Origin: Anas platyrhynchos
Taxonomy: Eukaryota > Chordata > Aves > Anseriformes > Anatidae
Direction: 5' to 3'
Length of the DNA stretch: 64,000 nucleotides
Assembly (NCBI RefSeq): GCF_047663525.1
Contig: NC_092589.1
Span: forward strand, 27,463,001-27,527,000
Position numbers and translations under genes: made by a program. The stretch's first letter is position 1. The number at the start of each line of letters is the position of its first letter. Below are positions 4,482-4,824 of this stretch, one piece after another. The notes beneath the pieces are model-generated. The model saw nothing but the letters and a program-made list of their open reading frames with translations. It had not been told where the DNA came from and searched no databases.

Positions 4482-4824
4482 GGGGTGCTCTGCCTGCTGC
4501 TCGCCTTCGCCTGACTGTGCACTGCTGCCAACGGTGCTAGAGTAAAATGTGAAGACTGCTCAGATGGCAGTGATGAGAGTGCTTGTGTGAAGAAGATGTG
4601 TACTGAATCTGACTTTGTGTGCATAGATATCAATAAAGTGTGTAACCAGCAGAGAGATTGCAAGGACTGGGGTGATGAGCCCCTGAAGGAATGCAACAAA
4701 AATGAATGTGACTGTCCAGCTGGGAAACTGTGGAGATAGTGATGAATGCCAAAACCCTGGTATCTGTAGTCAAATCTGTATCAACCTGAAAGGCTATCAG
4801 ATGAATCCTGCTACGGGAACCTGA
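4482..4824 (+). pseudogene. VLDL-receptor-derived intron-less fragment inside ERV-B (copy 1)
   Basis: One frame (4482-4739) reads as a signal-peptide-like hydrophobic stretch LCLLLAFA, an in-frame TGA (4512-4514), then NGARVKCE and cysteine-rich LDL-receptor class A modules: CSDGSDESACVKK, CTESDFVC, VCNQQRDCKDWGDEPLKEC and NKNEC. It stops at TAG 4737-4739. A second frame (4732-4824) continues with the EGF-like DECQNPGICSQICINLKG and YQMNPATGT. These match, in order, the start of the mature VLDL receptor, its last LDL-A repeat and its calcium-binding EGF module, with internal pieces missing and no introns. The parent gene encodes a multi-LDL-A-repeat endocytic receptor (in hens the oocyte yolk receptor). 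With a stop in the signal peptide and a frameshift it cannot encode a receptor. Confidence 0.85.

Follow-up and report, generated by a model that had tools for sequence, protein, structure and literature searches.

VLDL receptor sequence captured by duck endogenous retroviruses and joined in frame to Env

We studied a stretch of 64,000 nucleotides of the mallard (Anas platyrhynchos) genome (NC_092589.1, positions 27,463,001 to 27,527,000; hereafter the window), in which a first-pass annotation made from the letters alone had described positions 4482-4824 as a fragment of the VLDL receptor gene (VLDLR) carried inside an endogenous retrovirus (ERV) called ERV-B. This segment is real VLDLR sequence acquired by retroviral capture, not a lone processed pseudogene, and the window copy is a frame-broken, strongly shortened descendant of that capture, inside a second long terminal repeat (LTR) element, ERV-B. 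In less deleted copies of the same genome VLDLR is fused in frame to a retroviral envelope protein (Env), a finding that is new with respect to the first description. The explanation that we favor, with a probability of about 0.86, is that a retrovirus of a duck ancestor captured a spliced VLDLR mRNA and fused it in frame to Env, the window holding a shortened descendant of it.

The VLDLR sequence of the window and its junctions

The translation of 4515-4736 was compared with PDB chains, giving human VLDLR as the best match (E 2.2e-20) and LDLR as the next one (5.6e-10), and Pfam detected Ldl_recept_a in the piece (E 1.1e-5), the single LDL-A match by profile in the window copy, assembled from pieces. 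The VLDLR gene of the same genome sits on contig C35 (86 Mb; exons mapped in L050), and its spliced exons agree with the piece in 280 of 297 aligned bases (94%, the final block taking in around 10 viral bases). Three exon borders (4587/4588, 4695/4696 and 4735/4736) are passed without an intron, in such a way that past 4695/4696 six bases of that exon are kept. The intron-less, in-order patchwork described at first was recovered by alignment to the host exons, and its blocks could be placed as follows.

3932..4478, + strand: viral stretch common to the VLDLR-Env ERVs (blastn to L038-L049, around 82%)
4475..4533, + strand: VLDLR signal-peptide part (host exon 1), its start placed by VLDLR-less relatives (junction after 4474-4478) and judged from captured proteins
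4534..4619, + strand: VLDLR LA1 (minus 66 nt) joined to the start of LA2, by host-exon alignment (border 4587/4588)
4620..4701, + strand: VLDLR LA8 plus six EGF-A bases, behind a 756-nt loss, by host-exon alignment (border 4695/4696)
4702..4818, + strand: VLDLR EGF-A remnant plus EGF-B, with losses of 60, 20 and 27 nt, by host-exon alignment (border 4735/4736)
4819..4836, + strand: viral sequence past the capture junction, by equal position in VLDLR-less relatives

Grouped by retained blocks, LA8 with EGF-A covers 4620-4723 and EGF-A with EGF-B covers 4724 to around 4818. Two corrections apply to the first description: the host part ends near 4818, and the piece stands twice in the window (4400-4900 equals 19877-20377 at 100%).

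Both ends of the insert were located by comparison with relatives that lack VLDLR (L035-L037, described below), in which 4180-4478 is also present (blastn). The 5' junction, placed from the viral side, follows 4474-4478 and its sequence is viral, and the 3' junction lies inside the EGF-B exon, at a point where 14 of 15 nt are shared by host VLDLR and these relatives. VLDLR substitutes here for viral sequence and does not interrupt it. As in a transduced gene, spliced exons stand within a provirus, the junctions lie in viral sequence and the copies have multiplied with the insert. The proposal that a host VLDLR mRNA is carried by an ERV agrees with the spliced exons, the ERV flanks, the LTR pairs and the short target-site duplications found across copies.

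A processed VLDLR pseudogene made by a long interspersed nuclear element, inserted into an ERV and then carried along, would also lack introns and hold the gene only in part. Such an origin is highly improbable: no poly(A) was seen at the 3' junction in the window, L034 or L041, the insert stops within the EGF-B exon at the 14-of-15-nt match and continues in frame into viral sequence, and it takes the place of viral sequence, with a frame that reaches into Env. A poly(A) tail of its own, which the first-pass annotation had named among the signs of an independent pseudogene, was thus not seen at the junctions read, and the piece recurs with ERV flanks. A lone processed pseudogene is ruled out by these junctions.

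VLDLR-Env frames in the mallard and in other ducks

The assembly searched comprises 1.26 Gb in 42 contigs, the window being on C3 (121 Mb). A 501-bp query from the window was found at no fewer than 40 places (40 scored of 670 candidates), and 20 further loci of around 9.9 kb each were fetched. One of them, L028, holds a frame of 263 codons with EGF_CA, followed by a match to the C-terminal part of Avian_gp85 (positions 159-226 of the 246 in the profile) and by a stretch behind gp85 that we take to be the transmembrane (TM) part. VLDLR is joined in frame to this avian-retrovirus gp85/TM envelope in L028, L033 and L034, the last two of which have ERV-B flanks on both sides and retain LA8, EGF and gp85 in one frame, and L029 and L030, on contig C34, have the later LDL-A modules together with EGF and gp85 in one contiguous frame (365 codons in L030). 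The env piece of L028 occurs at 40 or more places in the genome (40 scored of 339 candidates). On C34, of 16 Mb, ERV copies with env are very numerous; judging by size and by the density of copies, C34 is probably the W and C35 the Z chromosome.

A further query of the genome was P0004, a mallard protein that is related to Env and has no VLDLR part (129 scored of 961 candidates). Full-length matches (305 residues, 82-89%) were obtained in ten rows, all but one of which lie on C34 and each of which contains one or more stops; many other rows begin around residue 82-100 at around 71-79% identity. Three of the ten full-length rows were fetched (L035-L037); they lack VLDLR, and around 311 nt, presumably integrase-type pol, stand in its place. 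By a tally made by hand, 58 of the 129 scored rows are free of stops, with 708 open codons or more. In each of the 12 copies fetched from these 58 (L038-L049), a single VLDLR-Env frame is intact over 725-853 codons, in some cases continuing past the fetched end; the twelve were picked among rows listed as open, so the proportion of intact copies cannot be read from this count. The order in the intact frame is leader, pol-derived stretch, LDL-A and EGF modules, gp85 C-terminus and TM. In L041, Pfam detected four LDL-A, EGF_CA and Avian_gp85 in one frame, 717 of 750 bases equal those of the host VLDLR exons, and five borders are crossed without an intron (LA1|LA2, LA2|LA3, LA6|LA7, LA7|LA8 and EGF-A|EGF-B). 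Just past the frame, L040 (through L051) and L041 continue into a 381-bp LTR different from that of ERV-B (for L041, its first 62 bases were compared).

Proteins of the same kind were found in databases. The L028 frame gave 105 matches, headed by Anas acuta proteins with both domains; below these came numerous avian Env proteins that lack VLDLR, and "VLDLR-like" proteins of ducks. When the junction of an Aythya protein served as the query, 26 matches were obtained, which by our own count are 18 of the captured kind and eight ordinary VLDLRs. Captured proteins came from six duck species of four genera, Anas acuta, A. platyrhynchos, A. zonorhyncha, Aythya fuligula, Mergus octosetaceus and Cairina moschata, Mergus and Cairina being Anatinae. 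P0109 (733 aa, from a cluster of 29 members) has four LDL-A, EGF_CA and gp85, and among eight proteins scanned with Pfam, gp85 was detected in P0003, P0004, P0109 and P0111, all from Anas. The Mergus and Cairina proteins have seven or eight LDL-A stretches. Several captured entries are gene models that include unrelated exons, which makes their outer parts unreliable; in P0116 (Mergus), the Env part is missing and the model continues into an unrelated gene. These matches indicate that several duck proteins annotated as "very low-density lipoprotein receptor-like" are ERV products.

In a tree of 18 captured proteins and 10 host VLDLRs (P0001, P0002, P0087 and P0108 of the 22 recognised were left out, and two captured rows fill under half of the columns), the captured proteins form one clade (99/90) beside the ducks' own VLDLR, with Anser outside this pair (95/76). 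The sequence data thus point to a single origin. No captured-kind protein from geese or swans was named among the database matches listed, other bird genomes being unsearched. From the junctions, the exons and the tree, which were observed directly, we infer that a spliced VLDLR mRNA was copied into a retrovirus by template switching during reverse transcription, in a duck ancestor that probably postdates the split from geese. The signal peptide, LDL-A and EGF modules would have replaced the approximately 311 nt of the VLDLR-less relatives, and this substitution would have produced the single frame of leader, pol-derived stretch, VLDLR, gp85 C-terminus and TM. The element would then have spread with helper proteins from other ERVs.

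The missing parts of VLDLR were also compared. With respect to the host cDNA, losses above 15 nt are of 66, 756, 60, 20 and 27 nt in the window and of 66, 354 and 60 nt in L041. Direct repeats of 6, 4 and 7 nt stand at the 66-, 756- and 60-nt losses, and of 1-2 nt at the other three. Five of these six distinct losses are multiples of three (p 0.018, one third being expected; the tally covers the window and L041 only). A partial Aythya protein without the Env part, P0104, retains EGF-A, and P0116 keeps eight LDL-A, so most of the large losses came after capture. Deletion at the time of capture was dropped as an explanation, as other copies and duck species keep LA1-LA8 or the whole of EGF-A. 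Template switching, to which the gaps at repeated motifs had been attributed, fits the capture junction with its 14 of 15 matching nucleotides, and three of the six large losses lie at direct repeats of 4-7 nt; the internal pieces, however, were mostly lost later than the capture, as fuller copies exist.

ERV-B as a carrier and other features of the window

The element that surrounds the VLDLR piece in the window comprises the following parts.

2441..7235, + strand: ERV-B, first copy, lacking the 5' LTR and around 640 bp of leader; around 94-97% identical to dispersed proviruses with both LTRs
6371..7235, + strand: ERV-B 3' LTR, 865 bp, TG...CA; full pair in 8 of the 20 fetched loci
17918..22712, + strand: ERV-B, second copy (tandem duplicate, offset 15,477), with the VLDLR piece at around 19952-20295
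5882..6409, + strand: env-TM-like relic, as named at first; unconfirmed, Pfam giving no retroviral match

The last row had been taken for the env relic of ERV-B, a naming that the Pfam result does not confirm. The unit 1519-10181 is repeated at 16997-25657 with 99.7% identity, an 8.66-kb tandem duplication, and the VLDLR piece occurs at five places of C3 (27.42-27.48 Mb), spaced 14.5-16.3 kb in a tandem array; these five are among the places found with the 501-bp query. Complete ERV-B copies carry around 640 bp more leader than that of the window (blast against the window). The LTRs of a pair are 99.2-99.9% alike in six of eight loci and 90-91% in L020 and L025, and direct repeats of 4-5 bp flank ERV-B in L009, L011, L012, L013, L014 and L028 but not in L020 and L025; flanks are shared between L012 and L013 and between L011 and L028, so the six loci represent about four independent sites. 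As to a possible gammaretrovirus-like (class I) affinity of ERV-B, for which a tRNA-Pro-type primer site and 4-bp duplications would be expected, a stretch that is presumably a primer site of this type follows the 5' LTR in the six loci read, and the direct repeats measure 4-5 bp. L021-L024, near contig ends and near-identical, look like duplicates of one locus; in them window positions 1-2070 are joined straight to 3311, which points to duplication of subtelomeric DNA as their mode of spread. L020-L023 and L025 form one ERV-B subfamily, marked by a tandem repeat of 7 nt where VLDLR starts (around 4484).

All 20 fetched loci hold the VLDLR piece because they were found by it. The 27-nt loss of the window is common to 19 of them, and L028 retains these 27 nt with the envelope stretch directly behind. 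Pfam detected no gag, pol or other retroviral domain in seven of the many ERV-B frames, the L028 fusion frame apart, and neither the window piece nor the L028 frame found a relative among viral contigs. In the parts read, L038-L049 share only 3932-4836 with the window element, for which reason we read ERV-B as a second carrier. ERV-B, described at first as the carrier, seems to have received an already captured VLDLR, the better preserved gene being in an ERV with a different LTR.

A separate ERV (10581-16994) lies between the tandem units, with identical 317-bp LTRs (10581-10897 and 16678-16994), a frame of 666 codons placed like gag but unmatched in Pfam, and a pol frame of 1059 codons with reverse transcriptase, RNase H and integrase. 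The tandem unit read also contains an open frame of 652 codons (7579-9537), which is coiled-coil-like and has no match in Pfam. A further open frame (47981-48508) encodes a Death domain (Pfam E 1.9e-12) and looks like EDARADD.

Product, selection and known systems

The motifs expected in a fusogenic Env were searched in the 12 intact frames. CX6CC is absent from all 12 and none has RX[KR]R behind the VLDLR part, one such motif standing ahead of it in 11 of 12; among related Env proteins, P0006 and P0013 have both the cleavage motif and CX6CC, and P0004 has only CX6CC. As the cleavage motif between the surface and transmembrane parts (SU/TM) and CX6CC are gone, the sequence points to an anchored receptor domain and not to a fusion machine, the most likely product being a VLDLR ectodomain that an Env stalk anchors in the membrane.

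The ratio of nonsynonymous to synonymous changes among copies is 1.2-1.5 in leader/pol, 0.55-0.6 in VLDLR (Fisher p 0.056) and 0.6-0.9 in SU/TM (p 0.19), and single copies, compared with the host gene, have a dN/dS of 0.46-0.75 (pooled Fisher p 0.027). Strong purifying selection was dropped as a candidate on these results. It is possible, although we consider it somewhat less than an even chance, that VLDLR is a passenger without a role, with frames open because the copies are young. Neither gag nor a complete pol was seen, dN/dS since capture is mildly below 1 and non-significant on the common stem, and window-type copies multiplied with a broken frame, as their closely similar LTR pairs attest. 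On the other side, five of the six large deletions are in frame, VLDLR differs from leader/pol within the same frames, although VLDLR alone gives p 0.056, and proteins from four duck genera, of which several are gene models, have long VLDLR frames.

Several points weigh against our reading of the capture and of its product. Selection on the captured frame is weakly shown and suggestive at most, as the changes common to at least 10 copies (the common stem) taken alone give a Fisher p of 0.30. Choosing open rows biases against nonsense changes, and the 58 open rows include clusters on one contig that need not be independent, 46 of them being unread. The repeated LA modules alone favor in-frame loss, and in window-type copies, L028 and L030 included, the frame is often broken by smaller indels. 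The 3' LTR was reached in two intact copies only, in such a way that the LTR class is known from the 3' side. Finally, Pfam detected gp85 in none of P0077, P0113, P0115 and P0116, only Anas proteins matching, and the Env part of Aythya, Mergus and Cairina is short or judged from alignment.

Two roles may be considered for such a product. A receptor decoy, protecting the duck or the element from viruses that use proteins of the LDL-receptor family, had been raised as speculation and remains so; we consider it unlikely. No duck virus is known to us to use VLDLR, and the retained TM would make the protein anchored and not soluble. The VLDLR ectodomain with its signal peptide would suit a decoy, and TVA, receptor of avian leukosis virus subgroup A (ALV-A), is given as an LDLR-fold receptor in PMC9967133. 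In birds, yolk precursors are imported by VLDLR at the surface of the oocyte (PMC3162882). A quite unlikely role would be that the receptor-binding region of Env was swapped for the yolk receptor, in such a way that infected cells or particles could bind VLDL and vitellogenin, be bridged to VLDLR of the oocyte and be taken up into the egg, the step from receptor display to oocyte delivery being conjecture. If true, this would be a germ-line route built on host yolk import, which would help to explain the many copies. The host gene imports yolk into bird eggs, so it can be asked experimentally whether retroviruses gain by carrying an egg-provisioning receptor.

Germline retroviruses have captured host genes in few cases, and we know of no other ligand-binding part of a receptor in frame with Env and open in at least 12 copies of one genome. 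The fusion described here is still open in at least 12 copies, with relatives in four duck genera, and no earlier report of a VLDLR-carrying ERV was found in an open-access literature search. Acute transforming retroviruses join a host message to viral genes and usually depend on helpers; the duck case differs from them in being a germline family, with a receptor ectodomain, fused to Env, instead of a growth-signal gene. Viruses of this type (v-src and the like) are named in PMC13297096. Crocodilian ERVs, according to PMC4299795, captured nectin3 (CrocERV31) and KIT-ligand mRNA. These likewise are host mRNAs in an ERV lineage, nectin3 being at the cost of env; the same paper reports frames under purifying selection and a nectin3 capture that predates a species split. 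In contrast, the duck receptor part is fused to the C-terminal half of Env with TM, in such a way that env is not replaced as described there, and the captured gene is the yolk receptor. The Env part resembles that of avian alpharetroviruses (gp85 plus TM) in its match to the C-terminal part of Avian_gp85, whereas the N-terminal part of the profile is unmatched and the cleavage motif and CX6CC are absent from the VLDLR-fused frames. For germ-line access through yolk uptake, models are provided by rice stripe virus, which gets into insect eggs with vitellogenin (PMC3946389), and by the microsporidian Nosema bombycis, which rides vitellogenin into eggs (PMC10729982). Both bind vitellogenin themselves, whereas the duck ERV carries the host yolk receptor instead.
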